Part shown: in pieces, positions 3 to 59,146 of the stretch
Numbering within the stretch: position 1 is the first letter of the stretch
How the letters are laid out: each line of letters begins with the position of its first letter
DNA from: an uncultured Lachnospiraceae bacterium
GTDB taxonomy: Bacteria; Bacillota; Clostridia; Lachnospirales; Lachnospiraceae
NCBI GenBank assembly: GCA_947626365.1
Contig: CANQRW010000011.1
Coordinates: 1-60,597 of the forward strand
Length of the DNA stretch: 60,597 nucleotides
Reading direction: 5' to 3'
The notes under the pieces: model-generated
What the model saw: only the letters and a program-made list of their open reading frames with translations
Databases searched by the model: none
Told to the model about the DNA's origin: nothing
Program-made: the position numbers and the translations under genes

Positions 3-845
3 ATGTATATCGCCGTCTTCGGCGTCAGCATTCTGGTCTGGCTGAAATACCGCAAAAAATATTTTCGGGGGAGCTGCGTCTTCGCGGCCAGCGCCATCGG
101 CGGTTACCTTCTTCTCAGCATAACCTTTACCCGGTTCTGTCAGCCAATGATCCCGGCAGACGCAGGTGCCTCCATGTCCGTATTCTCGCAGACGCTGGCC
201 AGGGCTTATGAACTGGAGCCGGAGCTGTGGACCCACGAGGAACTGGCCGCCTACAGCCGGTATTTCGGCGGAACGGACACCCAGTATATCGCCGAGAACG
301 CAGATCCTGTCAAAAGCCGTCTCTGGACGAATGGAAACACCTGGGAATTTCTGAAGTTCTGGGGCAAAGTCGGATTAAAGCATAAAAAATGCTATCTTGA
401 CGCTGTCCTCGCCGGTACGCGGCAAATGTGGTTTCCGGCCTCGGTTATCGACGGATATCTGGAATCAGGAACATCCGATTATCTTCCATTTGAAAAATGT
501 TATTATTTCTATTCCGACAGCATAGAAGAACCCGGTGTATTTATCAATCTTCTTCCTGCTGTCAATGGATTTTACCAGAGGATCGGCCTGTTCATTTCTT
601 TCGAACGGATTCCGATTCTGTCAATGCTTTTCTCAATCGGATTTCAGTTCTGGATTCTTCTGAACTGCGCGTTCTATATCGCATATCGAAGATGCCGCCG
701 CCTATACGTCCCGGTCTTAATTTTGATGGGCTATATGATAGGATCCGCTTTTGTTCCATTAGTTCTGCTGCGCTACTTCATCGCGATCTTTTTCGCGCTG
801 CCCCTGGTTCTGACATTTTCGCTGCAGCCGACGATGAAATACTGA
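3..845 (+). CDS. Membrane protein, C-terminal part (gene truncated by window edge)
   Basis: The reading frame is open from the first bases of the window, so the real start is probably upstream. The visible 280 residues hold one hydrophobic segment near residues 1-15, one near 30-45, a soluble extracytoplasmic-looking stretch of about 150 residues rich in Trp/Tyr, and then three membrane segments (about 195-265). This pattern of helices around a long outside loop resembles large polytopic proteins of the glycosyltransferase/DUF6020 type in Clostridia, but no catalytic motif is visible, so the function is not assigned. Stop codon TGA at 843-845. A copy of the dispersed hairpin repeat starts right after the stop. 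Confidence 0.55.
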   Translation: MYIAVFGVSILVWLKYRKKYFRGSCVFAASAIGGYLLLSITFTRFCQPMIPADAGASMSVFSQTLARAYELEPELWTHEELAAYSRYFGGTDTQYIAENADPVKSRLWTNGNTWEFLKFWGKVGLKHKKCYLDAVLAGTRQMWFPASVIDGYLESGTSDYLPFEKCYYFYSDSIEEPGVFINLLPAVNGFYQRIGLFISFERIPILSMLFSIGFQFWILLNCAFYIAYRRCRRLYVPVLILMGYMIGSAFVPLVLLRYFIAIFFALPLVLTFSLQPTMKY

Positions 846-888
846 CGAGCAGAGCGTTACTGGCGCCCTGCCCGCATACTGACATAAT
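844..888 (+). repeat. Dispersed hairpin repeat, copy A
   Basis: Stem arms GCAGAGCG (849-856) and CGCCCTGC (864-871) with one mismatch, loop TTACTGG, tail GCATACTGACATAAT (874-888). It sits between two convergent genes. It is one of seven relatives in the window that share loop and tail while the stem differs. Confidence 0.75.
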
Positions 889-932
889 GAAACCGGTCGT
901 ATTCGTCGTGGTCTTTGTTGTGCCCTTTTCGA

Positions 933-2414
933 TTATTCCACTTTCTCCTTAGCCGCGGCCGACGCAAGGGCGCGGTATTTCTCCTTCTCCGCCGCCATCT
1001 CCTCCACGGTCTTGGTCTTCAGGGTGAAGCCCTTCACCGGGCGGTAGGGAACGGTCTTATGCTCCAGCCGCGCCTTGGCCCGCTCGATCTCTTCCTTATA
1101 TTGAGGCAGCCACTCCGCGCCTGCCACCAGCATCTCATCCACCATCTGCCTGATCTCATCCGGCGTGCAGACGGCTCCGGTCAGAGGATCCATCATAGCC
1201 GCCTGATAGAGCAGATTGATATCGGCGTGAACCGCCGCTTCCACCGCCAGCTTCTGGACCCACACGCTCTGGGAACAGATGGCCGCGCATCCAAGAGGAA
1301 GGTCGCCTACCTTGGGAATGGAGATGCCGTTGTAATCCACGTAGCAGGGCACCTCCACCACGCACTCATCAGGAAGATTGGTGATGGTTCCGTTGTTCAT
1401 CACATTGAAATGTCCCCGGTAGATGCGGCCGGTCTCCAGGCTCTCGATGATATAGCTGCCGTGCTCCGTGGAACGTTTTTCGGGAATGAACTCCTTGGCC
1501 GGCTCCTTCAGCCAGTTGGGGAAATCCGTCTCAAACCAGTTGCGGCTTTCCTTGCAGACCCGCAGATATCCGGCGGTCTCGCCCTGGATCCAGCTGCTGT
1601 AGTTGATCCATTGTTCCATGTCCTCGGGGCGCTTTCGGTACCACATCAGATACTCGGACAGATGGCCGTTGGATTCAGTGGAATAATAGCCGAAATTCTT
1701 CATCACATCCAGGCGGATGTTCTCATCCTTGGCAAATTCCGCCTTCTTCATGTACTCATAGAGCTCTCCCGTCCGCTCCACGCCGTCGGTCTTCACGCTG
1801 ATGTACCAGGTCTGGTGATTCAAACCGGCGCAGATGATGTCCACATCCTTCTTATCCCGGCCCAGGGCCTGAGCGATCTGCTCGTGGCCGTGCTGGACGC
1901 CGTGGCAGAGGCCGTAGGTAGGCACCCCGCCGTACTTGTTGCAGGCCCAGGTCACCATGGCGTTGGGATTGGAATAGTTCAGCAGAATGCAGCCCTCCGC
2001 CGCCACCTCACGGATGTCCTTGCAAAAGCCCAGCATAGCGTCGATTCCCCGCTGTCCGTACATGATTCCGCCGATACACAGGGTATCGCCTACGCACTGG
2101 TCCACGCCGTATTTCAGGGGGATCTCCACATCAGTGGCGAAGGCTTCCAGCATGCCGATGCGCACGCAGTTGATCACATATTTGGCGTCCCTGAAAGCTT
2201 CCCGCCGGTCCAGCGTGGCGTGAATCTTAATGGAAAGGCCGTTCTCGTCAATATCTCTCTGGCACAGCTGGGTGACCATCCGCAGATTATCCGGATTGAT
2301 ATCCGTGAAGGCCACCTCGATATCATGAAATTCCGGAACCGTCAGAATATCCGCCAGAAGTCCTCTGGTGAAACCAATGCTGCCGGCCCCGATAAAGGCA
2401 ATTTTAAATGACAT
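933..2414 (-). CDS. Glycoside hydrolase family 4 (alpha-glucosidase/alpha-galactosidase type)
   Basis: This 493-residue protein belongs to family GH4, NAD- and divalent-metal-dependent glycosidases that act by a redox elimination mechanism in the cytoplasm. Visible signatures: N-terminal Rossmann motif IAFIGAGSIGFTRG (residues 5-18), the NYSNPNAM motif (about 146-153), the metal-site Cys at C170 in GLCHG and His at H200 in GLNHQ. The CHG variant resembles AglA-type alpha-glucosidases rather than the CHS of MelA, so its substrate probably differs from that of the adjacent GH4. Start ATG preceded by GGGAGGAA. It lies downstream of melA on the same strand, 171 bp apart, probably in the same transcript. 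Exact sugar specificity is not decidable here. Confidence 0.88.
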   Translation of the reverse strand: MSFKIAFIGAGSIGFTRGLLADILTVPEFHDIEVAFTDINPDNLRMVTQLCQRDIDENGLSIKIHATLDRREAFRDAKYVINCVRIGMLEAFATDVEIPLKYGVDQCVGDTLCIGGIMYGQRGIDAMLGFCKDIREVAAEGCILLNYSNPNAMVTWACNKYGGVPTYGLCHGVQHGHEQIAQALGRDKKDVDIICAGLNHQTWYISVKTDGVERTGELYEYMKKAEFAKDENIRLDVMKNFGYYSTESNGHLSEYLMWYRKRPEDMEQWINYSSWIQGETAGYLRVCKESRNWFETDFPNWLKEPAKEFIPEKRSTEHGSYIIESLETGRIYRGHFNVMNNGTITNLPDECVVEVPCYVDYNGISIPKVGDLPLGCAAICSQSVWVQKLAVEAAVHADINLLYQAAMMDPLTGAVCTPDEIRQMVDEMLVAGAEWLPQYKEEIERAKARLEHKTVPYRPVKGFTLKTKTVEEMAAEKEKYRALASAAAKEKVE

Positions 2415-2449
2415 TGCAAATTCCTCCCGAACTATTTATGTAATGAGTT

Positions 2450-2514
2450 GGGGCAAAAGGTATTTTGACCCCCATGATGCACGGATTGCTCCGCGCTTTG
2501 CGCTCCCGCAATCC
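2450..2514. repeat. Two intergenic hairpins between the GH4 genes
   Basis: GGGG...CCCC hairpin at 2450-2472 with A/T inner stem, then GGATTGC (2483-2489) pairing with GCAATCC (2508-2514) around an inner GCGC-TTT-GCGC stem (2493-2503). No U-tract follows on the minus strand, so these look like mRNA-stabilising or attenuating structures rather than a classic terminator. Confidence 0.5.
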
Positions 2515-2538
2515 TAAAGCACCTCAAATCCGCCCCTT

Positions 2539-2579
2539 TTACCTGTACTTAGGCAGAAGTCCCCGTGGACCTCCATAGC
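2539..2579 (-). repeat. Degenerate duplicate of the melA 3' end
   Basis: The 18 bases TTACCTGTACTTAGGCAG occur at 2539-2556 and again at 2586-2603, where they encode the last residues and stop of melA. Similarity continues for about 20 more bases with substitutions and a one-base deletion, so the outer copy no longer reads in frame. Period is 47 bp. It is a relic of a tandem duplication of the stop-codon region. Confidence 0.8.
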
Positions 2580-2585
2580 CGATTA

Positions 2586-3914
2586 TTACCTGTACTTAGG
2601 CAGGTAGTCACCATGGGCTTCCATCAGCTCGTCACACAGTTTGATGATGGTGTCGATATCCAGCTCCGCGGAAGTGTGGGGATCCAGCATGGCCGCCAGA
2701 TAGACGTCGTCCTTCTTCCGGCTCCGAGCCGCCTCGATAGTCATCAGCTGGCAGTTGATGTTGGTCATGTTGAGAGCCGCGCAGGCCGTAGGCAGGGCGC
2801 CGATCCGGGTGGGATGAATGCCCATGCCGTCCACCAGGCAGGGAACCTCCACGCAGGCTTCCTCCGGGAAGTTGGTGATCAGATGATTGGTGTTCAGCAC
2901 ATTTCCGCCGATCTTGTAAGGCGTGTTGGTAACAATGGACTCCATGATATGGGACGCGTACTCTCTGGAGCGCTCAAACTCCCTGACTCCGGTCTCCTTC
3001 AGCTTGCCGTACTCTTCCTTCCACTTGGCGATCTGATCGATACATCTTCTGGGATACTCATCCAGCGGGATCTTGTGCCGGTCGATCAGCTCCGGATATT
3101 TGGACTTGATGAAATAGGGGTTGTACTCCGCGTTGTGCTCGCTGGACTCGGTGCAGTAATATCCGAACCGCTGAATGTAGATATTCCGTACCTGATCGGT
3201 GAACTCCGGATCCTCCGCCAGCTTCTGGCTCGATCTTCTCCGGATCTCCGGATACAGGTCGTTGCCGTCCTTATCCGTAATCTCCAGAAGCCAGGCCTGA
3301 TGATTGATTCCGGCGATCAGCTCCCGACGCTCCTCTTCATACTGCTCCATGCCCAGCTCCTTGAGAATGGTGGGGGCGCAGACCTGGACGGAATGGCAGA
3401 GGCCGATGGTATTGGGGAAGGCGTAGCGCTGCATATAGCCGGTGATCATGGCCATGGGATTCACGTAGTTCAAAAACAGGGCGTCCGGACAGACTTCGTT
3501 CATATCGCGGGCAAAATCATCTACCACAGGAATAGTTCTGAGAGCTCTCATGATCCCGCCGATGCCCAGGGTATCGGCAATGGTCTGGCGCAGGCCGTAT
3601 TTCTTGGGAATCTCAAAATCGATGATGGTGCAGGGATCGTAACCGCCTACCTGGATGGCGTTCACCACAAACCTGGCGCCCTTTAAAGCCTCTTTCCGGT
3701 TCTCAACTCCCAGATGGGTCGTCACTTTCACCGGATTGCCTACGGTATGGTTCATGGCCTCGACGATGACCCGGCTCTCTTCCAGCCTGGACGCGTCGAT
3801 GTCGTAAAGGGCAAATTCGCTGTCCTTTAAGCAGTCCGTCATCAGGCAGTCTCCGATAATATTTCTCACAAAAACCGTACTTCCCGCTCCCATAAATGTA
3901 ATCTTGATTGACAT
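2586..3914 (-). CDS. melA: GH4 alpha-galactosidase
   Basis: This 442-residue GH4 enzyme is close in length to Bacillus MelA (about 432) and should hydrolyse alpha-galactosides such as melibiose or raffinose products in the cytoplasm using NAD and Mn. Signatures: Rossmann motif ITFMGAGSTVF (5-15), acidic D38/D40 after strand 2, LNYVNPMAM (148-156), CHSVQ with metal Cys C173, and INHQAW with H205. The CHS triplet is the form seen in alpha-galactosidase/galacturonidase members; LplD-type galacturonidase is the main alternative. Start ATG has AAAGGAGG eleven bases upstream. Divergent from an AraC regulator, a common arrangement for alpha-galactoside operons. Confidence 0.87.
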   Translation of the reverse strand: MSIKITFMGAGSTVFVRNIIGDCLMTDCLKDSEFALYDIDASRLEESRVIVEAMNHTVGNPVKVTTHLGVENRKEALKGARFVVNAIQVGGYDPCTIIDFEIPKKYGLRQTIADTLGIGGIMRALRTIPVVDDFARDMNEVCPDALFLNYVNPMAMITGYMQRYAFPNTIGLCHSVQVCAPTILKELGMEQYEEERRELIAGINHQAWLLEITDKDGNDLYPEIRRRSSQKLAEDPEFTDQVRNIYIQRFGYYCTESSEHNAEYNPYFIKSKYPELIDRHKIPLDEYPRRCIDQIAKWKEEYGKLKETGVREFERSREYASHIMESIVTNTPYKIGGNVLNTNHLITNFPEEACVEVPCLVDGMGIHPTRIGALPTACAALNMTNINCQLMTIEAARSRKKDDVYLAAMLDPHTSAELDIDTIIKLCDELMEAHGDYLPKYR

Positions 3915-3944
3915 AAGAAGCCTCCTTTTTGTATTTTTTTGATG

Positions 3945-3973
3945 TTTACTTTTTTGATACAGTCTGATAAAAT
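3945..3973 (+). promoter_or_regulatory. Probable promoter of the AraC-family gene
   Basis: TTTACT (3945-3950), 17-base spacer, TAAAAT (3968-3973). It overlaps the region between the divergent genes, so one regulator site could control both. Confidence 0.4.
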
Positions 3974-3991
3974 CATCCTGTAATTGTCTTT

Positions 3992-4020
3992 ATAATATTC
4001 GGCTTTTCCAGGACTTTCAA
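3992..4020 (-). promoter_or_regulatory. Probable promoter of melA operon
   Basis: On the minus strand TTGAAA (4015-4020), 17-base spacer, TATTAT (3992-3997), giving a leader of about 70 bases to the melA start. Confidence 0.6.
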
Positions 4021-4054
4021 TCGTAATAATTTGATAAAAAGGGGTAATTTTTTG

Positions 4055-4927
4055 ATGGGTGAATTTCAGGATATTCAGGACGACTACGGATTTCATTTTC
4101 TGGACGACGTGACGCACCCTCTGATCAGGATGAACGCCGTCGGCATCGAGTCCAGATACTCCGGCCAGTACTACTGGGATAACTCCGACCGGCCGGGCGG
4201 CTGGCTCTTTCAATACACCTTAAGCGGTAGCGGCACTGTGGAAATCGGCGGCAGAAAGCAGGTTCTGGAGCCTGGCATGGGATTCTTCGTGAAGCTGCCG
4301 GGGCCGGAGCGCTACTACTTTGACGAGGGACGCAACGCCGCCCCATGGAAACTTATTTTCATTCTCTTTGAGTGCCGGGAGGAAAGCTACTACCAATATA
4401 TCGAAGAACGACTGGGCAAGGTCTTCTCCGTTCCCTATTACAGCGATGCCATTCAGCTTCTGTTCGACATCCACCGCCAGGCAAAGGAGGGCAAAAATCT
4501 CAATCCTTTCTTTTTCAACAGCAAGGTCTTCGAATTCCTGTGCTGTCTCTGCGCTCTGGACAAGGACGCCAAAGCCGACCAGTCCGGCCTGATCCTCCGC
4601 GCCCGCAAATATCTGGACAGCCATTTTGACGGCCCCATCGGCATCGGCGATACCGCGGATTTCCTGGGCGTCAGCCAAAGCCATCTGTCCCGGGAATTTT
4701 ACCGGGCCACCGGCATGAAGCCTGTGGATTACCTGACCCGCCTGCGCTTAAAGCGCGCTATCCATCTGCTCCACACCACTGCATGGAAAATGGAGGAGGT
4801 CAGCAGCGCATGCGGCTTCTCCTCCTCCAACTATTTCAATAAGGTCTTCAAAAAATACATGGATATGACCCCTCAGCAGTTTCGGACCTACGCGAAAACC
4901 CAAGGGTACATCAGCGTGCAGATCTGA
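4055..4927 (+). CDS. AraC-family transcriptional regulator
   Basis: Start chosen at ATG 4055 because AAAAAGGGG ends ten bases upstream; a TTG at 4031 would put that site inside the gene. The 290-residue protein has an N-terminal cupin-like ligand domain (sugar-arm type, about residues 20-140, with the SGSGTVEIGGR turn) and a C-terminal double helix-turn-helix (about 190-285): SQSHLSREFYRATGMKPVDY and the second helix pair ending in CGFSSSNYFNKVFKKYMDMTPQQF. Divergently placed to the two GH4 genes, it is inferred to be their sugar-responsive activator. Family and architecture are clear; the effector is inferred only from context. Confidence 0.9.
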   Translation: MGEFQDIQDDYGFHFLDDVTHPLIRMNAVGIESRYSGQYYWDNSDRPGGWLFQYTLSGSGTVEIGGRKQVLEPGMGFFVKLPGPERYYFDEGRNAAPWKLIFILFECREESYYQYIEERLGKVFSVPYYSDAIQLLFDIHRQAKEGKNLNPFFFNSKVFEFLCCLCALDKDAKADQSGLILRARKYLDSHFDGPIGIGDTADFLGVSQSHLSREFYRATGMKPVDYLTRLRLKRAIHLLHTTAWKMEEVSSACGFSSSNYFNKVFKKYMDMTPQQFRTYAKTQGYISVQI

Positions 4928-5028
4928 TTCCGGAAGTCCGCATGTCCGGGCCATCGGCCGCCGGCCTGGCCTGACAGAGTTCTGTCCATCCTTCAGCAGC
5001 ACACTGCGCTGCCGGCCGGGCCCTCTGC

Positions 5029-7390: not shown

Positions 7391-7405
7391 ATCATTTCTC
7401 CTTTC

Positions 7406-7533: not shown

Positions 7534-7623
7534 AGATACTAAGAACGGGAAAAGAATTCCCTGTGAAAATGATACGACGCCTGACGAAAAAAATCAAATA
7601 AATTATTTATAAATTTAATTTAA

Positions 7624-7666
7624 TACGAGCATAGCGTCACTGGCGCGTTTTTTATACTGACGTAAT
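7624..7666 (+). repeat. Dispersed hairpin repeat, copy B
   Basis: AATACGAGC head, GCG-TCACTGG-CGC hairpin (7634-7646), tail ATACTGACGTAAT (7654-7666). The tail overlaps the last codons and stop of the ATPase gene, so the repeat supplies that protein's C terminus (ITSV). The outer stem is weak here. Confidence 0.7.
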
Positions 7667-14363: not shown

Positions 14364-14410
14364 AGTCAAGATCCTTTCTGCCCGGCACTTGGAAAACCGT
14401 CGGGCGGAAT

Positions 14411-14453
14411 ACAGATAAAGCGTCACCGGCGCTTTATTTGCATACTGACGTAA
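14411..14453 (+). repeat. Dispersed hairpin repeat, copy C
   Basis: Perfect arms ATAAAGCG (14415-14422) and CGCTTTAT (14430-14437), loop TCACCGG, tail GCATACTGACGTAA (14440-14453). Between dppA and dppB in the operon; an adjacent hairpin is at 14459-14488. Confidence 0.8.
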
Positions 14454-16219: not shown

Positions 16220-16276
16220 ATCTTCGTTCCTCCTCGTATTAAACTGCACAGCCGGATATCTCTGCCTTCCCAACTC

Positions 16277-16318
16277 GAACAAAGCATCACTGGCTCTTTG
16301 TTCGCATACTGACGTAAT
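16277..16318 (+). repeat. Dispersed hairpin repeat, copy D
   Basis: Arms GAACAAAG (16277-16284) and CTTTGTTC (16296-16303) with ATCACTGG in the loop and tail GCATACTGACGTAAT (16304-16318). Lies between the C-S lyase gene and dppA; the rest of 16220-16443 shows no gene and no convincing promoter. Confidence 0.8.
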
Positions 16319-27009: not shown

Positions 27010-27205
27010 TTTGTAATCCCAAAGTGCCGGTTCTTACTGTTTGACGCCTAGCCAAGCTAGGTGGGCAACCGCACTCCGGCTTCTGCCTTCCACTGCAACG
27101 GAGGCCTGACATCTACCGGAAAATATTGGAATCCCTTCTGTCATAATGTAGGTTCAAAGTAAGTAAGAGTATCGAACACCCCAGGAATCACTTTCTCTTT
27201 TGTCT
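27010..27205 (-). ncRNA. ssrS: 6S RNA
   Basis: The RNA of about 190-200 nt regulates sigma-70 RNA polymerase by mimicking an open promoter. Visible support: it lies directly between a strong promoter and a terminator with no coding frame. Its ends form a ten-base closing stem, TCCTGGGGTG (minus strand 27177-27186) with CACTTTGGGA (27017-27026), G-U pairs included. The central part (TTTGAACCTACATTATGAC, then GGGATTCC) and the 3' half (GGTTGCCCACCT, AGTAAGAACCGGCAC) match what I recall of Clostridial 6S sequences. Exact ends are inferred. Confidence 0.82.
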
Positions 27206-33779: not shown

Positions 33780-33808
33780 ATTGTAGAACAGTTCAGCCCA
33801 TATTACAA
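33780..33808 (-). promoter_or_regulatory. Promoter of the CLC-F-like gene
   Basis: TTGTAA (33803-33808), 17 bases, TACAAT (33780-33785) on the minus strand. Confidence 0.6.
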
Positions 33809-33859
33809 CTGGTTTAGAAGGTCATTTTTCTGTTCCAACCATCTTGCTGTCCCGCAATA

Positions 33860-33973
33860 TCATAACTTCATCAAACATGAATTTGAATCCGAATAGCAAT
33901 ATCGCTCTGCCAACTCTCCGAACCTGGCCAATACCGGAAAATCGATATTTAAAAACTCAAAATTGGACTTCAT
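33860..33973 (-). pseudogene. 5' stump of an hsdR-like (type I restriction/DUF4145) gene
   Basis: Immediately after the subtilase stop codon there is GGAGG and, seven bases on, an ATG opening a 37-codon frame, MKSNFEFLNIDFPVLARFGELA..., ending at TGA. This matches the characteristic N terminus of HsdR-type/DUF4145 helicase-nucleases (S-N-F-x-F-L ... ELAExYxYxDxNxCLxKL). Everything after about 33860 is missing, replaced by the CLC promoter region. It overlaps the operon downstream of the IetAS-type pair and implies that a restriction gene was once linked to it and was deleted. Confidence 0.7.
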
Positions 33974-33984
33974 GACGGTTCCTC

Positions 33985-36249
33985 CTAATCAAAGGTTATC
34001 TCCTCTTGATTTTTATTGTAAAGCGTTAACCTGTTTTCAAGATTTATCTCATTTACGATCCAGCCCCTTAATGTGCATGCCATAATAAAATCTTGTATTC
34101 TGTTAACACCATTAATTTCTCGAAGAGTAACGACAACGCCAAAATTTAAATTCGAAGTTATAGAAGCAGCCAGCCGTTCCTTCGAGGTAATCGATATACC
34201 CCACAACCGTTCATCATAAGACGTAAGAGATCTATTTTTTTTCAAAATTTTAGAAATAAATTTCGTATTTTCCCATTTTCTGAACTCTTTGCGGGACTTG
34301 CGTTCATCAACGGCATACCCGATATCATCCTGAATGTTTTCATTGATATCATCAATATTACCGTTTCTGTTCACTCGGCCAAATTTTAAAGATAATTCTC
34401 TGGATGTATAATCTACTCCCTGGGTTCTGGAACACTGAGGAAAATAGCATAGTGCAGCACGTGCAATATAGGGATATTTATTATCCGCATCCCGCGGAAC
34501 CGGAATCGAATAATTTGAAGTAACATATGAACTTGCCGTACCATATAAAACAAATCGTATCTCTCTGTTATCTGATTCCAAAATATCTGATATTTTTATT
34601 GGAACAATACCATAACCAATCTGGTTTTGTATTTTATATGTAGATGTCTTAAAATCCCATCCTGCTGCCGAATCTATAATCAGCGCCTTGGCTACTTCTC
34701 TGGGAAATCCCATAATATCAATTAAAAAAGCCAGCTTTCTCGCAATCCAGGGGGCCGCAAATGATGTCCCGTACACTTCCTCTACATCTTTGGAAGAACA
34801 TGCTCTTATACGCTCTCCTGCCTCATAATCTCCGCCATAATAAGAGACATCCGGCTTATTAAAAAAGGATAAAATATTACCCTTCCTTGTGTAGGAAGCA
34901 GGCATTCCATTACGTTTCACTGAGTTCACAACGACTGCATTCAATGAATCTGCAGGAGAGCCGACCCGCAGCATATCATTTTTTGCAATCCGATTATCAT
35001 TTGTTCCCGACACAACAAAAATAATATTCTTATTTGCCTGCAGCTCATCCAGCACGGCTCCATCATACGAGATAAAATTTTTTGATACTTCATCATCTGT
35101 TCCAAGCGACAGATTCCATACATGAATATCCGGATTATCATTTATAATTTTTCTGATTTTATTTACCAATCGCGGGACTGAAATTCTGTCTACACACACG
35201 CCAAAATGACGCACCTTAAACCGGCCGCATCCATCATCCAGCCACGGATTCAAATCCGGGCCGTCTACAATGATAGATGTCACCTCTGTTCCATGATCCC
35301 GCAAAACATCTTTGCCTGTAACCGATTCAAACTCATCAAGATAATCCTCATTCTCAACCCATTCGGAAAAGTAAACGCTCTCATCAAACAAATTATCGAT
35401 AACGCCTATTGTAGGTTCATTGGCAGGCCTTGGAATATTACGCATATACTTTGGTTTTGATTCATCAAGGACTTCCCATGTGATCTTTGACCAATCTGAA
35501 GAAATCATCGAAATCATGTATGGAACTTTTCCTTGAAGAACCTGATATAGATTCCAATCTACTGAAATCGTATCTTTCCCGTAAAAAGTATACGGATATT
35601 GATAGCGGTCTATTTTGAGCTTTTCCAGTATGTCGGACAGAGAACATTCTGTCTGAAAAAATGTCAGCAAAAAAGATTCTTTATATGTATTAGCTGTTAC
35701 ATTGGGAACCGTCATAGATTCTACAACAGAACAATCCACGATCATGCCGCGTATAATGCTTTTTGGGATTGTATACCCCTTATAATCCAAATTAGTTTCT
35801 TTTTCTATTGTCTCATTAAAATTCTCCGATGTCGCTTTACCATTCAATTTATCTGTCAAAAATCGTTTTGTTTCCTCAAGTCTCTCCAATGTTCTGTTAA
35901 CTGTCTTTTCATCAACATAATAAGTGATGATATGGTTTTCTTGTCCCTCCGGCGCCTCTGAAAAGCGGGCCCCTACCACCACATCATTTGTCTGTTTTCC
36001 ACTAGGTTTAAGCAATTCGCTTATTCTTTTGGATTTTGCAATAATGTCATTATAATTGACATCAATCAGATACCCTTTTAAATATTGGGGAGATGAATTA
36101 TAATACCGGATTATCGCCCTTAGATTCTCCTGTAATTGTTGTATTTTCTCGACAGTCGTCTCTCCACTCTTTTTAAGGTTTACCAAAATAGGACTGCCTT
36201 GCCGTCCTCTGCGATTATATCGAACTTTTACCTCTAACAGATGATTCAT
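33985..36249 (-). CDS. Subtilisin-like S8 serine protease, IetS type
   Basis: The 754-residue protease has a long N-terminal region (1-275) and an S8 catalytic domain with the full triad visible: D285 in TIGVIDNLFD, H319 in RDHGTEVTSI, S496 in YGTSFAAPWIA, with oxyanion N417 in SGTNDN. No signal peptide, so it acts in the cytoplasm. The gene begins inside the stop codon of the AAA gene (ATGA, 36246-36249). AAA ATPase plus subtilase is the architecture of IetAS, known from Agrobacterium Ti plasmids as a toxin/antitoxin-like pair and found to protect against phage. The protease would be the toxic effector held in check by the ATPase. The gene is markedly AT-richer than its neighbours, consistent with horizontal transfer. 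Confidence 0.9.
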   Translation of the reverse strand: MNHLLEVKVRYNRRGRQGSPILVNLKKSGETTVEKIQQLQENLRAIIRYYNSSPQYLKGYLIDVNYNDIIAKSKRISELLKPSGKQTNDVVVGARFSEAPEGQENHIITYYVDEKTVNRTLERLEETKRFLTDKLNGKATSENFNETIEKETNLDYKGYTIPKSIIRGMIVDCSVVESMTVPNVTANTYKESFLLTFFQTECSLSDILEKLKIDRYQYPYTFYGKDTISVDWNLYQVLQGKVPYMISMISSDWSKITWEVLDESKPKYMRNIPRPANEPTIGVIDNLFDESVYFSEWVENEDYLDEFESVTGKDVLRDHGTEVTSIIVDGPDLNPWLDDGCGRFKVRHFGVCVDRISVPRLVNKIRKIINDNPDIHVWNLSLGTDDEVSKNFISYDGAVLDELQANKNIIFVVSGTNDNRIAKNDMLRVGSPADSLNAVVVNSVKRNGMPASYTRKGNILSFFNKPDVSYYGGDYEAGERIRACSSKDVEEVYGTSFAAPWIARKLAFLIDIMGFPREVAKALIIDSAAGWDFKTSTYKIQNQIGYGIVPIKISDILESDNREIRFVLYGTASSYVTSNYSIPVPRDADNKYPYIARAALCYFPQCSRTQGVDYTSRELSLKFGRVNRNGNIDDINENIQDDIGYAVDERKSRKEFRKWENTKFISKILKKNRSLTSYDERLWGISITSKERLAASITSNLNFGVVVTLREINGVNRIQDFIMACTLRGWIVNEINLENRLTLYNKNQEEITFD

Positions 36250-37292
36250 CCGGAAACTCCTCCTTTCAGTTTGCGCGACACGCTGCTTTTCGGAACCCGG
36301 GCCAGTATCTCTATCTCTCTTGTTGTAAATCCCTGTTCCGAAAGTGTCTGAATACTCACTGTCTTCGGATTGTCATTTAGCGCAAGATAGATTTTTCGTA
36401 AATAGTCATATTTATTTGTTTCATCACTAAATGCAATAGAAGTCTTTATCATTTGCTTCATATCCCCTGGATACGGTATCGCGTTTAGTTTATTTAGTAT
36501 TTTATTAAACAATCTCATATCCTGGCTCGAATTAACTGCCTTTTTTATATTGGATGTCAGCATGGCATCGGCAATTTCAATCAGATCTTCTCTTGAATAT
36601 CTGTCAAATGAAACCATCGCGTCAAATCTTCTGGTCAGCGCCTTGTCAAATCTTTCAAACAGATTCGTCGTGGCAATCACTACAATCTGATCGCTCAGGG
36701 TATCCAATTCTTTTAAAAAGGTTGATGTCACTCTGCTCATTTCGCGAAGGTCATTTTCACTGCTTCTATTTAAAACTAAAGCATCCAACTCATCAAATAT
36801 CACAATAACCCTGTCATACATTAGATGATTGATTTCATCAAACAATCGAATTACATTTTTCGATGTCTCTCCCAGCCTGCTGTCAATCAGTTGTTCCATA
36901 TGCACAGAAAGAATATCTCTTTCAAGCAAACGGGCTATTTGAAAAGCGGACTCTGTCTTTCCTGTCCCCGGCATCCCATAAAAAAGAAATTTAGACATCC
37001 CAGTCTTATTTCTAATTGCCCGTACAATTCCAATAACATCCTCTTCAATAATATTAGGAAGCATAAGCGGATTAGATGAATATTCGATTTTTTCCAAAAA
37101 CTGAAGATTTCGATAATTAGCCTGTGGTATATAGACATTTGCATTTGAAATCAAATCCATCAAATACTGAGCCACCTCATAATCGCCATTGGAATCGAAC
37201 TCCCTGGCTATTTCAGACACTTCGGAAACAAAGGCCGTATTATTCTGTTCCACATGATATTTTACAAGATTGATAATGTTTTGCTTCTTCAT
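36246..37292 (-). CDS. AAA+ ATPase, IetA type
   Basis: The 348-residue protein carries a AAA+ core with Walker A GMPGTGKT (106-113), Walker B VIVIFDELDAL (162-172), sensor-1 asparagine (N210 in ATTN) and arginine finger region LTRRF (219-223). A C-terminal helix-turn-helix (about 318-348: FTTREIEILARVPKSSVSRKLKGG) is unusual and suggests DNA binding. Coupled translation with the downstream subtilase. In IetAS the ATPase controls the protease. Paired repeats around the promoter fit autoregulation by this helix-turn-helix. Confidence 0.9.
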   Translation of the reverse strand: MKKQNIINLVKYHVEQNNTAFVSEVSEIAREFDSNGDYEVAQYLMDLISNANVYIPQANYRNLQFLEKIEYSSNPLMLPNIIEEDVIGIVRAIRNKTGMSKFLFYGMPGTGKTESAFQIARLLERDILSVHMEQLIDSRLGETSKNVIRLFDEINHLMYDRVIVIFDELDALVLNRSSENDLREMSRVTSTFLKELDTLSDQIVVIATTNLFERFDKALTRRFDAMVSFDRYSREDLIEIADAMLTSNIKKAVNSSQDMRLFNKILNKLNAIPYPGDMKQMIKTSIAFSDETNKYDYLRKIYLALNDNPKTVSIQTLSEQGFTTREIEILARVPKSSVSRKLKGGVSG

Positions 37293-37328
37293 TGCGCTAT
37301 CATCCTCCCATGCCTTCTATCATAATAT

Positions 37329-37370
37329 ATTATAATTATTTATGGGACATTTGTCAATTGTTTTGGGACA
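37329..37370 (-). promoter_or_regulatory. Promoter and paired operators of the IetAS operon
   Basis: Consensus promoter TTGACA (37352-37357), 17 bases, TATAAT (37329-37334). Two identical heptamers TGGGACA (plus strand 37343-37349 and 37364-37370) are exactly 21 bp apart, two helical turns, one between -35 and -10 and one upstream of -35. Confidence 0.7.
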
Positions 37371-37426
37371 ATATTTCATTTTCCCAGACTGTCCATAACC
37401 AGATAATTCTGTATTTCTCAAATGCA

Positions 37427-37512
37427 GAAAGTGCGCCACCGGTACCCTATCCTGCATACTGACGTAATACAAAAAACGTATCACTGGCGCGTTTTTTGCA
37501 TACTAACGTAAT
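37427..37512 (+). repeat. Dispersed hairpin repeats, copies E1 and E2 in tandem
   Basis: E1 (37427-37468) has a weak stem and the tail GCATACTGACGTAAT (37454-37468). E2 (37469-37512) follows at once with perfect arms AAAAAACG (37471-37478) and CGTTTTTT (37490-37497), TATCACTGG in the loop, and tail GCATACTAACGTAAT (37498-37512). The pair shows a 44-bp tandem unit and lies upstream of the IetAS promoter. Confidence 0.8.
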
Positions 37513-37541
37513 AAAAGGACCATGTATTTCTACACGGTCCT
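37511..37541 (-). terminator. Terminator of the threonine dehydratase gene
   Basis: Eleven-base arms AGGACCATGTA (37516-37526) and TACACGGTCCT (37531-37541), one G-U pair, four-base loop, followed on the minus strand by TTTTAT. Confidence 0.85.
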
Positions 37542-37587
37542 GACAATCGGCAATCTGTATTTTGTTTTCGATACCAAAATTCGACCT

Positions 37588-53160: not shown

Positions 53161-53168
53161 CATTTCGC

Positions 53169-53197: not shown

Positions 53198-53234
53198 GAA
53201 ACAAAGTCAGACGATTCCATAAGGGAGGTGCGCG

Positions 53235-55037
53235 ATGGGAAATAAAAAGCCGCGCCGGGGCAGTATCCGGCGGCGTATCCTGCTGCTGGTCCTGGCCTTC
53301 ACCGTGACCGCCGCCCTGATCATCTCCGCCAACAGCGTTCAGGCAGTGGGCGAGCGTCTGGAACGCACGGTTCTTCAGTCGGCAGAATATACCCTTCAGC
53401 TGGCCAGCGCCTCCATACGCGCTAATATTCAGGAGGTGGATGCCCTGGCGGACTGGTGCTCGGCAGACCCCTCCACCCGTACCTGGCTGCTGACCGGCAG
53501 CGCTCCCGCCGCTCTGAGGCAAACGGTTTATACGACGGTTTCCGGCAAATACGGTTCCATGCGCACGCTGCCCTACCTGCAGCGTTTTCTTTGCATAAGC
53601 GCGGGAGGCGGACGCCTGAATTTCGGTATCAACAGCGCCCAGACCAGGCCTCTCACGGAAGCGGCCCTGGAAAACCTGCCCGGTTTCGGAAACGAGGGCG
53701 ACACTGCCTGGCAGCGCATTGAAACAGATCCCCTGATGCTGACCAATCTGGCCACCCGCGGCATTCCCGTCACCCGTACCCTCCGCAACGCCGGCGCGAC
53801 CAGGACGGCCCACATATACATATCCGTGTCGGAGTCTCTCATTACCGACCCCCTGAAAGACTTTGCCCTCATAGACGGCGGCGCCCTGTACTGGGGCATG
53901 GGCGGCGAACTTTATTCTGTTGAGAGCGGCGCTCTGAAAGCGGCTGAGTCCGACGGCTTCGAACTGACCCCTTATGAGGCGGAAACCCTGGACCCGGCCA
54001 CCCGGCTGTTCACGACACATAATAACGGCCAGACCCTGGTGGTATGCTATCCCATCGGCCTCCATGACCTGTATCTGATCGAGACCTTTCCCGCCGCCAC
54101 CATTTATGACCAGCTGCCTCTCCTGCTTCGCTCCGTCAGTATCGGTCTTCTGATCATCGCGGTTCTGGGCGTCGTCCTGGGCGCGCTGCTCCAGTACATG
54201 GTGGCCCGCCCCGTACAGGCCCTCCAGCGGCAGATCGAACGGCTGAGCAGCGGCGACCTTACGCCTGATCCCGGGCTGGAGTGGAACAATGAGCTGGGCG
54301 ACATCGGCCAGGGAATCAACCGTATGGCTGACAACATCAGCACACTGATGGAAAAGCGCCTTGAAGATGAAAAGCAGAAGCAGGACCTGGAGTACCGGAT
54401 GCTGCAGAATCAGATCAATCCCCATTTCATTTATAATACCCTTAACGGCATCAAATGGATGGCCACTATCCAGCATGCCGACGGCATCGCGGAGATGACG
54501 ACAGCTCTCTCAAACCTGCTCAAGAGCGTGTCCAAGGGCAACGAAAAGCTGGTTCCCCTGGAGCAGGAACTTGCGCTGCTTGACGATTATTTTACCATCC
54601 AGCAGTACCGCTACGGCGGCACCATTACGCTGACCATCGCTCCCGTTGAGGATAAAGAGCTTCTCAGCCGCTGCCTGATTCCACGGTTCACTCTGCAGCC
54701 CCTGGTGGAAAACGCCATTTTTCACGGAATCGAACCCAGCGGCCGCGCCGGGGAGATCACCCTTACTATCACCCGGGAGGAACCGGACAACGTACTGCTT
54801 TGCCTGCAGGATAACGGCGTAGGCATGACCCCGGAGCAGGCCGCCAAAGCGCTTCAGGAACCCGGTCCGGAGGAAGCGGCCGCCAAGTTCCGCCACGTAG
54901 GCATGTGGAATGTTCACCGGCGCCTGCAGTACAGTTTCGGCGACGTCTACGGCCTGTCCATCGAAAGCAGCCCGGGGAAAGGCGCATCCGTCATGATCCG
55001 TCTTCCCGGACCGAATATACAAGGAGAAAAGCCATGA
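53235..55037 (+). CDS. Sensor histidine kinase (YesM type)
   Basis: The 600-residue protein has a first membrane helix (about 13-32), an extracytoplasmic sensor part (33-293), a second helix (about 295-320), HAMP (about 321-370) and a His_kinase domain with the phospho-acceptor H397 in QNQINPHFIYNTLNGIKWMA, followed by a HATPase with LVENAIFHG and DNGVGM. Such kinases sense extracellular sugars. Start ATG after AAGGGAGGTG; the next gene overlaps its stop (ATGA). Expected to sense a product of uronic-acid polymer breakdown. Confidence 0.95.
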   Translation: MGNKKPRRGSIRRRILLLVLAFTVTAALIISANSVQAVGERLERTVLQSAEYTLQLASASIRANIQEVDALADWCSADPSTRTWLLTGSAPAALRQTVYTTVSGKYGSMRTLPYLQRFLCISAGGGRLNFGINSAQTRPLTEAALENLPGFGNEGDTAWQRIETDPLMLTNLATRGIPVTRTLRNAGATRTAHIYISVSESLITDPLKDFALIDGGALYWGMGGELYSVESGALKAAESDGFELTPYEAETLDPATRLFTTHNNGQTLVVCYPIGLHDLYLIETFPAATIYDQLPLLLRSVSIGLLIIAVLGVVLGALLQYMVARPVQALQRQIERLSSGDLTPDPGLEWNNELGDIGQGINRMADNISTLMEKRLEDEKQKQDLEYRMLQNQINPHFIYNTLNGIKWMATIQHADGIAEMTTALSNLLKSVSKGNEKLVPLEQELALLDDYFTIQQYRYGGTITLTIAPVEDKELLSRCLIPRFTLQPLVENAIFHGIEPSGRAGEITLTITREEPDNVLLCLQDNGVGMTPEQAAKALQEPGPEEAAAKFRHVGMWNVHRRLQYSFGDVYGLSIESSPGKGASVMIRLPGPNIQGEKP

Positions 55038-56311
55038 TCCGAGTTTTTCTTATTGACGATGAACCTCTGGTTCTCATCGGCATGCAGGGCATGCTGGACT
55101 GGAACTCCCTCGGCTATGAGGTGATCGGCACCGCGCGCAACGGCGGCGAGGCGCTGCCTGCCATCCGGCAGCTCCACCCCGACATTGTCATTACCGATAT
55201 CAGCATGCCGGTAATGGACGGTCTTACCCTGCTGGAACACTGCCGGGAGCAGGACTCCGTCCTGCCCGTATTCATCATGCTCACCATCTATGAAGAATTC
55301 GACTATGTTAAGCGCAGCCTCAGCCTGAACGCGGTGGAATACCTTATTAAAATGGAGCTTACCGCCGAGACCCTCAGATCCGCCCTGGACCGGGCCCGGA
55401 AGGTAGTGGAAAAGGAACTGGCCCTGCGGGCTCCCGCGGCTCCCGTCCGCAGCAATCTGACCGCCTATCGGGAACGGCTGTTTCTGCAGCTGTACGGAGG
55501 AATGTTTACGGACCGAACCGTTCTGGACCGCCTTACAGAAGCGGTGAACCTGAATTTTGACGCGCCCTTTTACACGGTAGTGCTGGCCGAACTGCAGGGT
55601 CTGCCGGAGGCTCCGGAGAACGGGGATGATCCGGAAAGGGACCGGCTGGTCTCTCTCAGCGCGGGGGTGACCGGCATGGCCGCTAAGACCATGCCCCGTT
55701 ACCTGCCCTGCTGGGTCACATGTATGGATCTGCGTCACTTCTCGGTACTGATCCCTCTGCAGAGCAGCGAGTCCCTCCGTCCGCTGCTGATCCCTGTTCT
55801 GGAAAAGACCGAACAGATCCTTCACAATTATTTCAGCGTCCGCCTGCACTGGGCTGTGGGGACGCCGGTGGCCGACATTCTTCAAATTGGCCGCAGCCAG
55901 CAGGACGCTTTTGCCGTGCTGCCTCTTCTCAGCGACGCCCAGCCGGTGCTGTTCTGCGCCGAGCGCGTCAACCCACAGCTGGACCGCCGGGCCCATCTGG
56001 TAGCCCAGGTGCAGCAGTATATCCGCGATAATCTGGACAAACGCCTTTCTCTCAATGACGTAGCGGCGGTATTCAATTTCAGTCCCAATTATCTCAGCCA
56101 GCTGTTTGCCAAAAGCGGGGAAAACAGCTATGTGGAATTTGTCACTGCTACCCGCATCGATGCCGCCAAACAGCTGATGGCCTCTACCGACCTTAAAATC
56201 TACGAAATCAGCGCCCGCATCGGTTTTGAGAGCGCGTTCTATTTCAGCCGGGTATTCAAAAAGCTGGAGGGCGTAAGCCCTCGGGAATACATACAGAAGG
56301 TGAGGAACTGA
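55034..56311 (+). CDS. Response regulator with AraC-type DNA-binding domain (YesN type)
   Basis: Start ATG 55034 follows AAGGAG and overlaps the kinase stop; longer frames would lie in the kinase gene. The 425-residue protein has a receiver domain with acidic D8/D9 and phospho-acceptor D55 (VITDISMP), a middle region (about 130-320), and a C-terminal AraC double helix-turn-helix (about 325-423: LSLNDVAAVFNFSPNYLSQLFAKSG ... SARIGFESAFYFSRVFKKLEGVSPREY). It is inferred to activate the divergent importer/GH88 operon and the lyase gene downstream. Confidence 0.95.
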   Translation: MIRVFLIDDEPLVLIGMQGMLDWNSLGYEVIGTARNGGEALPAIRQLHPDIVITDISMPVMDGLTLLEHCREQDSVLPVFIMLTIYEEFDYVKRSLSLNAVEYLIKMELTAETLRSALDRARKVVEKELALRAPAAPVRSNLTAYRERLFLQLYGGMFTDRTVLDRLTEAVNLNFDAPFYTVVLAELQGLPEAPENGDDPERDRLVSLSAGVTGMAAKTMPRYLPCWVTCMDLRHFSVLIPLQSSESLRPLLIPVLEKTEQILHNYFSVRLHWAVGTPVADILQIGRSQQDAFAVLPLLSDAQPVLFCAERVNPQLDRRAHLVAQVQQYIRDNLDKRLSLNDVAAVFNFSPNYLSQLFAKSGENSYVEFVTATRIDAAKQLMASTDLKIYEISARIGFESAFYFSRVFKKLEGVSPREYIQKVRN

Positions 56312-56315
56312 TATC

Positions 56316-58205
56316 ATGCTGCGGGAACTTTTAAACCATGCTGACTACACGCCCCAAAAACCTGTTCTCGCGCCCGGCGCGGATCAGGAAATCTGGCGGC
56401 GTCTTCCCGGGGCAAAGCGCATAACCGCGGCCGCCGACGCCCTGTTAACCTCCGCCCCACAGCCGCCGGCCCTGTCTCTTACGGACTGGCTGGCCTTCAC
56501 GGAAAAAGGAGACAGAGCCTCCTATGAAACGCCTTACTTCGCCCGCCGGCGCGGCCTGTGCAGCCTGGCCCTGGCCGCGTGCGTAACGGACGGGGAGCCT
56601 TATGTGAGAGCCGCGGCCGACTATGCCTGGGCTATCTGCGAGGAGACAGCCTGGCAGCTGCCCGCGCACAACAGCTATGAACGGGACGCTCCCCAACTTC
56701 CCCTTCCGGACCCATCCCGCCCCATCGTCGATCTGTTTGCCGCAGAGACAGGCGCACTGCTGGCTATGGTGTACGCCCTTCTTGGCCCCCGGCTGGATTT
56801 TCTGGCTCCCGGCATTTCATCAAGGCTGCAGGACGAAACCGCAAATCGCGTGCTGGCCCCTTGCCGAAGCCGGCATTTCTGGTGGATGGCTGACACCGAC
56901 GACCCCAAGGATACTCCGGTCTGCAACTGGACTCCCTGGTGCATTCAGAACGTACTGCTGACGGCGGCAGTCTTCGAGCCTGCAGACGCTCTTCCTCAGT
57001 ATATCAGGAAATTTGTCCGGGGCCTGGACCGTTTTCTGGACGCCTACGGCCCCGACGGGTGCTGCGACGAGGGGGCCCAGTACTACAGCCACGCCGCGCT
57101 GGCATTGTACAATGCTTTGGAGCTGCTGTGCCGGATGGCCCCCGGCGTCTTTGAGCCGGCATGGCGGGAGCCCAAACTGCGGAACATGGCGGAATACATC
57201 CTGCATATGCACGCGGAGGGACCTTGGTATCTGAATTTCGCGGACTGCAGTCCCAAGCCAGGCCCCCGGGGCGTAAGGGAATACCTCTTTGCCAGACGGG
57301 TAGGCAGCGCCGCCCTGGAAGCGCTGGCGGCGACGGATTTTGCCCGTACCCATGGCCAGCTGACAGATCCGTCCCAGGGACAGGTCCGGGAGTCCGTTTT
57401 GACCAGTCCCACAGAACAGCCTCCCGCTGACAACTCCCGGGACATCAACCTCTACGAGCAGGTACAGGCCGCTCTTGCGGAAACAGATATCCTGGCGGCG
57501 GCCAACCGTTTTTCCCGGCAGCTTCCATCGCCTTCCGATATATGGTATCCCAGCGTTGGTATCCTGTCCGTCCGGCGCGGCCCCTTTTTCCTTGGCGTCA
57601 AGGCCGGCTGTAACGGAGACAGCCACAACCACAATGACACCGGAAGCGTGACGCTGTATAAGAACGGACAGCCCCTGCTCATCGACATCGGCGTAGAGAC
57701 CTACACCCGCGACACTTTCGGTCCCTTACGCTACACCATTTGGACCATGCAGTCAAGCTGGCACAATCTGCCGGAATTCGACCCGGACGGCGCCGCGTAC
57801 CAGCAGCTGCCCGGCCCTCAGGCCCGCGCTTCAGAGATAGAGGTGGACGATGACCTGGGCGGTATTGCCATGGAGCTTGCCGCCGCCTACGGTCCCCCCG
57901 GTACAGTTCCCGGACTGGGCAGTTACCGGAGGCGGGTCCGCCTGACAGCGGAAGGCCTCCATATCTATGATGTTACCGATTACCCCGGCGATGTCGCTCT
58001 CTCGCTCATGAGCGCGCTTCCTCCCCGGACGCGGGGCAATGTCCTGGATTTCGGCCGTCTGGCGACCCTTACGTCAACCGGCGCAGACCGTTTCCTGATC
58101 GAGGGAATTCCTATTCTCGACCAGCGCCTGCGATCCGCCTGGCCAGATACCATTTACCGCACACGTATTTATTTCCACAATGAACTGAGTCTGGAAATTT
58201 CCTGA
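56316..58205 (+). CDS. Heparinase II/III-family polysaccharide lyase-like protein
   Basis: The 629-residue protein has an N-terminal alpha toroid (about 60-370) and a C-terminal heparinase II/III-like beta domain that opens with GCNGDSHNHNDTGSVTLYKNGQPLLIDIG (motif around 435-441, His and Asp in the DSHNHND core). These enzymes eliminate across uronic-acid glycosidic bonds, giving the unsaturated ends removed by GH88. No signal peptide is seen, so it is apparently a cytoplasmic oligosaccharide lyase that acts after import. It begins 4 bases after the response-regulator stop. Confidence 0.88.
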   Translation: MLRELLNHADYTPQKPVLAPGADQEIWRRLPGAKRITAAADALLTSAPQPPALSLTDWLAFTEKGDRASYETPYFARRRGLCSLALAACVTDGEPYVRAAADYAWAICEETAWQLPAHNSYERDAPQLPLPDPSRPIVDLFAAETGALLAMVYALLGPRLDFLAPGISSRLQDETANRVLAPCRSRHFWWMADTDDPKDTPVCNWTPWCIQNVLLTAAVFEPADALPQYIRKFVRGLDRFLDAYGPDGCCDEGAQYYSHAALALYNALELLCRMAPGVFEPAWREPKLRNMAEYILHMHAEGPWYLNFADCSPKPGPRGVREYLFARRVGSAALEALAATDFARTHGQLTDPSQGQVRESVLTSPTEQPPADNSRDINLYEQVQAALAETDILAAANRFSRQLPSPSDIWYPSVGILSVRRGPFFLGVKAGCNGDSHNHNDTGSVTLYKNGQPLLIDIGVETYTRDTFGPLRYTIWTMQSSWHNLPEFDPDGAAYQQLPGPQARASEIEVDDDLGGIAMELAAAYGPPGTVPGLGSYRRRVRLTAEGLHIYDVTDYPGDVALSLMSALPPRTRGNVLDFGRLATLTSTGADRFLIEGIPILDQRLRSAWPDTIYRTRIYFHNELSLEIS

Positions 58206-58210
58206 CACTC

Positions 58211-58240
58211 TCCGGAAGCAGACGCGTTCCGGATGTTTAT
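58211..58240 (+). terminator. Terminator of the two-component/lyase operon
   Basis: TCCGGAA (58211-58217) and TTCCGGA (58227-58233) arms followed by TGTTTATTT. Confidence 0.6.
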
Positions 58241-58249
58241 TTCAGTTAA

Positions 58250-59110
58250 AGATGCAGCACAGACAATCTACGCTTACTGACGTAGTCGCCGCCACCCGTA
58301 AAACGGGTGGCTCGGACGCGGGCTATAAGCCCGCACTACTCGGCCAGCGTCTAAAGGCGCTGGCTGTCTCTTTGCGCTATGGGAATGTCGCTCTGCGCTC
58401 CATTCCCACAGCCCCGTTCCAGCCACTTTGCTCTTAACTCATCGCCGCCGCTTAAGCGGCTTTCGTACTACTTCACCTCTGACCCTTAAAAGGGTCCTCG
58501 TACTCCTTCACACTCAGTTTATCTCTCATGATGTCTTCTCTCTCCTGGTCTTGTATGTACTTCCTTATGGTGGCTTCATTCAGCCCTACCGTGCTCACAT
58601 AGTAACCTTCTGACCAGAAATGTCGGTTTCCAAACTTATACTTCAAATTTGCGTGCCGGTCGAAGATCATCAGCGCCGATTTTCCTTTCAAATACCCCAT
58701 AAAACTCGATACACTCATCTTCGGCGGTATACTTACCAGCATATGGATATGATCCGGCATCAGATGTCCTTCTATGATCTCCACTTCCTTATAAGAACAC
58801 AGTTGTTTCAAAATCTCTCTTATGTCATCTTTCAGTTGATTATAAATTATTTTTCGTCTATACTTAGGAGTAAAGACAATATGATACTTGCACATCCATT
58901 TCGTGTGAGCTAAATCATTGGCTTTATTTGCCATAAAATCACCTTTCCTTTCTTTTTAATAGTGGCTGGATACCTCTATTATAACGGAAAGGTGATTTTT
59001 TTGTATAACTATCGTCGCGCACCCGCAAAGCGGGTGGTTGTCTGTTTCATATGTCTCCGTTTTTCGGAACACGAAAAACTCCGACATATTCAACGGGCTA
59101 AAGCCCGTAA
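58250..59110 (-). mobile_element. IS200-type insertion sequence
   Basis: Encodes an intact Y1 transposase. Both ends hold paired small hairpins of similar sequence: CCACCCGTAAAACGGGTGG (58293-58311) and CGGGCTATAAGCCCG on the left, CACCCGCAAAGCGGGTG (59020-59036) and CGGGCTAAAGCCCG (59093-59106) on the right, as expected for subterminal hairpins recognised by single-strand transposases. Exact borders are estimates. The left border carries TTACTGACGTAGT and the right border is followed by copy F of the dispersed repeat. Confidence 0.75.
58473..58934 (-). CDS. tnpA: IS200/IS605-family transposase TnpA
   Basis: The 153-residue single-strand transposase has the HUH motif DHIHMLV (H62, H64) and the catalytic Tyr Y126 in ATIRKYIQDQE. 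Full length for IS200 TnpA, no frameshift. It cuts and joins single-stranded DNA at hairpins near the element ends. No TnpB gene accompanies it. Start ATG follows GAAAGGTGA. Confidence 0.95.
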   Translation of the reverse strand: MANKANDLAHTKWMCKYHIVFTPKYRRKIIYNQLKDDIREILKQLCSYKEVEIIEGHLMPDHIHMLVSIPPKMSVSSFMGYLKGKSALMIFDRHANLKYKFGNRHFWSEGYYVSTVGLNEATIRKYIQDQEREDIMRDKLSVKEYEDPFKGQR

Positions 59111-59146
59111 TACGAGCAGAGCGTCACTGGCGCTCTGCCCGCATAC
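59110..59146 (+). repeat. Dispersed hairpin repeat, copy F (tail truncated)
   Basis: Perfect arms GCAGAGCG (59116-59123) and CGCTCTGC (59131-59138), loop TCACTGG, then GCATAC; the remaining TGACGTAAT of the tail is absent. Head AATACGAGC directly abuts the right end of the IS200-type element. Confidence 0.8.

Follow-up and report, generated by a model that had tools for sequence, protein, structure and literature searches.

What kind of element is a short hairpin that recurs seven times in one stretch of a Lachnospiraceae genome, with the same apex and 3' tail and a stem that differs from copy to copy: a structured RNA, or a piece of DNA that moves? The window, that is, the whole stretch of 60,597 nt analysed here (contig CANQRW010000011.1 of assembly GCA_947626365.1, from an uncultured Lachnospiraceae bacterium), carries these copies almost always between its genes, and the original prediction took their changing but paired stems to imply selection on structure, in RNA or in single-stranded DNA. 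We find that the repeat is a real, abundant and genus-centred palindrome family. It is probably mobile, by a mechanism that we propose from the sequences. Our best explanation, to which we assign a probability of about 0.58, is that it is an orphan, non-autonomous mobile DNA palindrome, similar to repetitive extragenic palindromic (REP) elements and moved in trans. This explanation rests on a defined unit, net insertions of 44 nt, the AA that precedes the unit, clusters arranged head to tail and a preference for terminators of the opposite strand, at their outer edge.

All seven predicted stretches were found on the plus strand of the window, where a covariance model built on the hairpin recovered 7/7, six at E ≤2.3e-4; the weakest match (37421-37457) scored 14.7 bits (E 0.086), and the 66 rows used to build the model include two of these copies (16272 and 37466). 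The stem pairing that had been claimed is good (8-9 of 10 pairs) in five copies and, as read from the letters, poor in those at 7624 and 37427. Many further copies exist, with about 150 in the same draft genome (3,496,966 bases in 144 contigs). The 15-nt tail, with up to two mismatches, occurs there 129 times forward and 86 times in reverse, against 5 and 1 for a reversed control pattern; hairpin plus tail, with up to three mismatches, gives 157 matches (0 for the control), and the covariance model gives 153. The uniform orientation seen in the window fails genome-wide. The mostly intergenic placement holds, with 5/113 copies inside genes as called by our own codon-usage caller, which underlies all the placement counts.

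Within the genus, 16/26 genomes are positive with the covariance model and the other 10 gave zero matches. The copy-rich relatives are G023 (175 matches), G010 (172), G013 (147), G012 (141), G017 (134), G015 (111), G021 (98), G011 (92) and G014 (61), and the copy-poor ones are G016 (11), G019 (8), G018 (7), G022 (4), G025 (2) and G020 (1), counts that may be low since the best 150 candidates per genome were scored. Across 397 genomes of the family, a hairpin pattern was abundant in two of this genus and matched once in each of four others; at E 1e-5, with the best 17 candidates per genome scored, the model found three genus members among 396 family genomes, plus G293 and G313, with a single match apiece. 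The solitary copies outside the genus (42 bits in G313, 36 bits in G055 and 34 bits in G293) may be relics, transfers or contamination. An exact-pattern scan of GTDB returned at least 73 loci, which among the matches listed all belong to uncultured Lachnospiraceae metagenome-assembled genomes (MAGs) with Lapin isolate names, and the repeat was not matched in the viral contigs, plasmids and phages searched.

The element consists of AATAC, a hairpin with the apex TCACTGG, GCAT and a tail (consensus AATAC-AAACAAAGCG-TCACTGG-CGC.TT.TTT-GCAT-ACTGACGTAAT). Two exchangeable tails were recognised: a long one, ACTGACGTAA, in units of mostly 44 and sometimes 43 nt, and a short one, GGAAA, in units of 39 nt. 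In the short-tail class, GCATGGAAA replaces the long tail; among well-paired hairpins, 27/178 start GCATGGAA and 131/178 start GCATACTG. This class seems common in G017, where 11 long-tail matches stand against 116 hairpin matches, and both tails are mixed within arrays at loci L089, L050 and L111. Our unit set comprises 194 units (148 long, 46 short), for which a near-canonical apex and GCA were required; the sets of 172 and 116 units also need an AATAC-like left end, which excludes 22 long units. Where the left end was not used for selection, A, A, T, A and C occupy the five positions 5' of the hairpin in 92, 96, 84, 85 and 91 of 108 array-first long units; in the 116 units with the left-end requirement, the two letters before TAC are A in 108 and 113. 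At the other end, 100 of 101 array-terminal units have A as the penultimate base of the 15-nt tail and 56 have T as its final base, a conservation that is partly by construction, as these tails were picked within three mismatches. We would read the unit as TAC...GTAA, placed after AA.

The units also cluster, as 102 singles, 22 doubles and 5 triples, and 33/34 pairs less than 250 bp apart are head to tail. For pairs with full-length arms the spacing is 44 nt in 18/19 cases with a long unit first and 39 nt in 14/14 with a short unit first; this count leaves out units whose 5' arm is 9 nt long, and spacings of 43 nt were thereby hidden. At L044 two tails face each other with 56 bp between them. 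Some tails (L031 2018, L044 2006/2062, L027 2008, L040 1990) are not preceded by a canonical hairpin and are possibly deletion scars.

Insertion can be followed at two places. At L150 (G011) a unit interrupts another repeat, the uninterrupted form of which is present at L159 (G011), GAATAT/CC becoming GAATAT-ACAA...GTAAT-CC, a net gain of 44 nt. At L113 and L149 the unit lies within a palindromic sequence whose unit-free form occurs at L220 of G017 (83% identity, 88 nt), and GGCAA/CCTGAG against G-CAA/GCTGAG again gives net +44 nt at the junction. No target duplication is recognisable at these two filled/empty sites beyond shared A/T bases, with an ambiguity of 1-2 nt. Miniature inverted-repeat transposable elements (MITEs) of the RUP and Correia types have terminal repeats and a target site duplication, in contrast to this repeat at the two filled/empty pairs. 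Copy 1 of the window is also found at the orthologous site in G011. At the site of copy 3, a foldback of ~205 nt that shares the repeat's ends is present in G011; the G018 sequence is TTTCTGACGTAACGCC, with only CTGACGTAAC at the site. Foldbacks of up to ~205 nt (GGGGCTGTTGCAGAA...TTCTGCAACAGCCCC) form a second family, seen at L159 743-912, L150 2735-2947, L025 5826-5894 and elsewhere; they have the AATAC and GCATACTGACGTAA ends of the hairpin repeat, and in G011 this family takes the repeat's place at the same site.

The placement of the repeat is asymmetric as well. On the tail side, the flanking gene is directed toward the repeat for 40/48 copies of the same genome and 47/60 related copies, orientation counts in which copies lacking a called gene on either side are excluded. 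Between codirectional genes, 54 copies are antisense and 14 sense (57 vs 13 per intergenic region), and divergent sites hold 7 antisense and 2 sense; replication bias is inseparable from gene orientation in these data. Neighbouring copies share a strand in 23/30 pairs, drawn from twelve contigs other than C11, the window's own. An A-run followed by a hairpin, the image of a terminator on the reverse strand, occurs at 30/101 3' flanks, compared with 8/115 5' flanks and 73/2020 random positions, and such an asymmetric target (AA, then an A-run) could itself set the antisense orientation.

Under the explanation that we prefer, the single-stranded repeat would fold into a hairpin, and an enzyme supplied in trans would recognise the apex and cleave after the AA that closes the tail. 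The freed unit would then join another site, again after AA; this AA would often be the one that closes a copy already in place, and head-to-tail arrays would arise in that way. An HUH-type single-strand nuclease is the candidate that best suits this anatomy. Stems would drift, and recombination would exchange arms between copies, which may be why the arms stay matched without selection for a transcript.

Several observations weigh against this proposal. Two filled/empty pairs alone are precise, both within other palindromic sequences; further ones were sought by orthologue search, where the flanks proved too diverged to align, and the apparently empty site of copy 3 in G018 may equally be a deletion between CTG repeats. 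The tandem period varies: all long-tail pairs within 60 bp are spaced at 44 nt in 22/32 cases, 43 nt in 8, 45 in one and 53 in one, and in the 43-nt spacings read by eye one arm is shorter by one base. Convergent sites have no clear strand preference (19 antisense, 16 sense, by majority gene strand). Finally, no linked transposase was found when two nuclease families, Y1 and Y2, were sought in draft MAGs. Y1 (PF01797) does not track copy number in these draft genomes, being found in 4/10 copy-rich genomes and 6/16 others, and Y2 (PF04986) is found in 6/26 genomes, with the repeat absent from the six Y2 loci scanned. Draft MAGs often miss mobile genes.

Could the same pattern arise passively? 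Replication slippage, hairpin-templated repair and recombination might make and homogenise the copies of a palindromic repeat with no dedicated enzyme, a reading we consider improbable. Stem covariation is real. In an alignment of 77 rows (77/79 distinct arm pairs), 9/10 stem pairs have changes on both sides, a value reached by 2/500 shuffles, and there are 91 doubly changed cells against a shuffled mean of 40.4, reached by 0/500, with far lower values for slid partners. In 66 copies of both tail classes, 10/13 pairs covary, with 110 doubly changed cells against 43.5 shuffled; these rows, taken from 122 distinct units partly at random and partly by hand, with misregistered rows omitted, lean to well-formed copies. 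What had been predicted, a family of dispersed hairpins whose apex and tail are conserved and whose paired stems vary, is upheld. The step from compensatory change to selection on structure is not, since covariation can arise by exchange. At a shared site the stem is replaced as a block (GAGCAGAGCG/CGCTCTGCTC at L033, AAAAAACGCG/CGCGTTTTTT at L095), single arms are replaced between L113 and L149 and between the second unit of L036 and L152, and 10/101 imperfect units are chimeras that combine arms from two recurrent perfect types; stems are unchanged at the shared site L112/L126. Because arms are replaced at shared sites and chimeric units occur, exchange between copies explains part of the covariation. 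These replacements and chimeras, the 43/44-nt spacing of tandem arrays and the lack of a linked transposase among those found would suit passive copying, but unrelated sequences have gained a net 44 nt and AA is preferred before the unit, both of which suggest a cut-and-join step beyond slippage.

An RNA element, such as a hairpin in a 3' untranslated region, an attenuator or a small RNA whose fold is kept by compensatory changes, is less probable still. The strong covariation and the intergenic placement would fit it, and some stems (A6...T6) resemble, in our reading, bidirectional terminators. However, on the plus strand of 172 units G.T/T.G mismatches number 83 and A.C/C.A mismatches 80 (p 0.88), whereas one of the two types should predominate if either strand acted as an RNA, and with both equally common neither strand looks selected as RNA. 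Copies are, moreover, mainly antisense and often lie past the neighbour's terminator, the tail is exchangeable, the stem has no constant U-run, and Rfam has no match above gathering score (one to isrK, E 0.94 in one 201-base stretch, was rejected as chance). Arm swapping and the equal mismatches therefore favour DNA-level processes over a selected RNA. A pseudoknot between CGTCA in the loop and TGACG in the tail had also been suggested; it is not a general fold, because TGACG is absent in 45/46 short-tail units, which mostly retain CGTCA (34/46). CGTCA is kept somewhat more often in long-tail units (111/126), where a minor role for the pseudoknot is possible.

The resident IS200 is a candidate mobiliser, of which the repeat would be a non-autonomous derivative. 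The window holds one such insertion sequence (IS), of the P0002 type, with an IS200-like transposase (PF01797, 144.8 bits); it is located where a tail remnant meets copy 7. Insertion sequences at least 81% identical to P0002 (over at least 64 aa) lie at six loci, and the hairpin is near the left end at four: it abuts an intact end in G000 (L056) and G012 (L065), is joined to an internally deleted IS in G023 (L069), and lies ~60 nt away, across a terminator, in G017 (L064). This type was seen in copy-rich genomes only (4/10, and 0/16 of the others). At the other two loci, L057 and L058 (G000), there is no hairpin near the IS; L058 holds the CTGACGTAAC string a few bases from the right end. Compared by eye, the ends of P0002-type elements resemble the repeat in neither sequence nor apex, a Y1 match is absent in 6/10 copy-rich genomes, and a preference of the IS for GTATT, which the repeat's 5' edge supplies, explains the association equally well; IS200 is often a guest of the repeat, and its role as mobiliser is the least probable reading. 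Two further links, to a RAYT/Y1 gene and to an IS91-type Y2 enzyme, were rejected on the distributions given above. A gene pair between inverted copies was also considered as a transposase and rejected, its open reading frames reading as a PIN-domain toxin-antitoxin pair, with no family search made. At this place (L112 2566-5100, L126 2-2400) two inverted repeats surround the toxin-antitoxin-like pair, the flanks (300 bases at the repeats) are 94-100% identical between two species and the adjacent gene for lysyl-tRNA synthetase seems to have diverged further; the segment is perhaps a recent exchange.

How, then, does this mobile palindrome compare with known ones? The earlier statement that no named family has this pattern is true of the exact family, yet the resemblance to REP elements is close. 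The GTAG REPs associated with RAYT (TnpAREP) are likewise short, high-copy extragenic palindromes, with a conserved motif beside a hairpin of varying stem; passages in PMC3733652 and PMC8266576 describe them as thought to be mobilised as single strands, and TnpAREP is reported to act on single-stranded REPs (Corneloup et al. 2021, PMC8266576). Those REPs are defined by GTAG/GTGG 0-2 nt 5' of the stem, in the wording of PMC6006769. Our repeat shares the high copy number, the short palindrome and the position outside genes but lacks this tag by the stem: its 5' neighbour is AATAC, and on the complement strand ATGC (77/77 rows, chosen for near-canonical apex and tail). Its conserved motif is 3' of the hairpin and exchangeable, close pairs are head to tail where inverted (head-to-head or tail-to-tail) pairs prevail among GTAG REPs, and no RAYT (Y1) gene flanked by repeats was found in these draft genomes, the Y1 genes beside repeats being IS200-like. 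CGTC REPs have stems of 8-9 bp, loops of 4-5 and a terminal unpaired CGTC tag, come mostly from alpha-Proteobacteria and are reported without a dedicated transposase (Di Nocera et al. 2013, PMC3733652); the word Firmicutes is absent from that text. Our repeat has CGTC at its apex and, on the complement strand, in the long tail; the motif does not adjoin the stem and is absent from the short tail.

IS200/IS605 elements insert without target duplication and have a hairpin with a nearby single-stranded cut site, features in which they and their MITEs are like our repeat. The latter differs in having one hairpin only, a length of 39/44 nt and ends unlike those of the resident IS200 by eye. Among the matches listed from open-licence PubMed Central (PMC) papers, the repeat's letters occur as the 10-letter TCACTGGCGC only, with no 13- or 15-letter strings, and the family is not described in the open-licence PMC titles and abstract starts on REP, RAYT, terminator-linked MITEs and Clostridia or Lachnospiraceae palindromes. 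Compared with REPs, the head-to-tail arrays, the two tails, the duplication-free insertion at two readable sites, the terminator edge and the lack of a RAYT among the genes found are unusual. More tentatively, and we are doubtful of it in full, these may be very small self-standing mobile DNA units (39 and ~44 nt), in which the hairpin would be the recognition body and the tail an interchangeable cut-site module, inserted after AA by terminators and chained head to tail by a non-RAYT Lachnospiraceae enzyme.

Copies of the repeat and associated features in the window.
Feature	Position	Strand	Description	Basis
Copy 1	844..888	+	stem GAGCAGAGCG/CGCCCTGCCC, long tail with one change	letters and covariance model
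Copy 2	7622..7666	+	3' arm degenerate, long tail	letters and covariance model
Copy 3	14408..14453	+	site differs in G011 and G018	locus comparison and covariance model
Copy 4	16272..16318	+	long tail	letters and covariance model
Copy 5	37421..37468	+	stem decayed, long tail intact; first of head-to-tail pair	weak, 14.7 bits
Copy 6	37466..37512	+	second of pair; then A-run and hairpin, terminator-like on - strand	letters and covariance model
Tail-only remnant GCTTACTGACGTAGT	58272..58286	+	opposite side of IS200 from copy 7	letters
IS200-like element	58287..59108 (ends approximate), tnpA 58473-58934	-	at GTA/ATAC junction of remnant and copy 7	
Copy 7	59109..59146	+	tail ends early, after GCATAC	letters and covariance model

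Some other features of the window were recorded. Its sole Rfam match at gathering score is a 6S RNA (27012-27190, minus strand, 70.2 bits). Another short repeat, at 2438-2533, recurs, among the matches listed, six times in G011 and once in G018. An IetS (subtilase) and IetA (AAA) defence pair (33985-37292, PADLOC models) adjoins the repeat pair at 37421-37512, and the block that holds it (33795-37584) is absent from G011 and different in G018.

Overall, dispersed repeats may show strong covariation of their stems without a selected RNA behind it. The conclusions of PMC3733652 leave open by what route REP-like palindromes spread when they have no transposase of their own, and the Lachnospiraceae family offers definable unit boundaries, two tail types and a target preference. 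Copy-rich and copy-free species occur in one genus, and the missing enzyme can therefore be sought by comparison.

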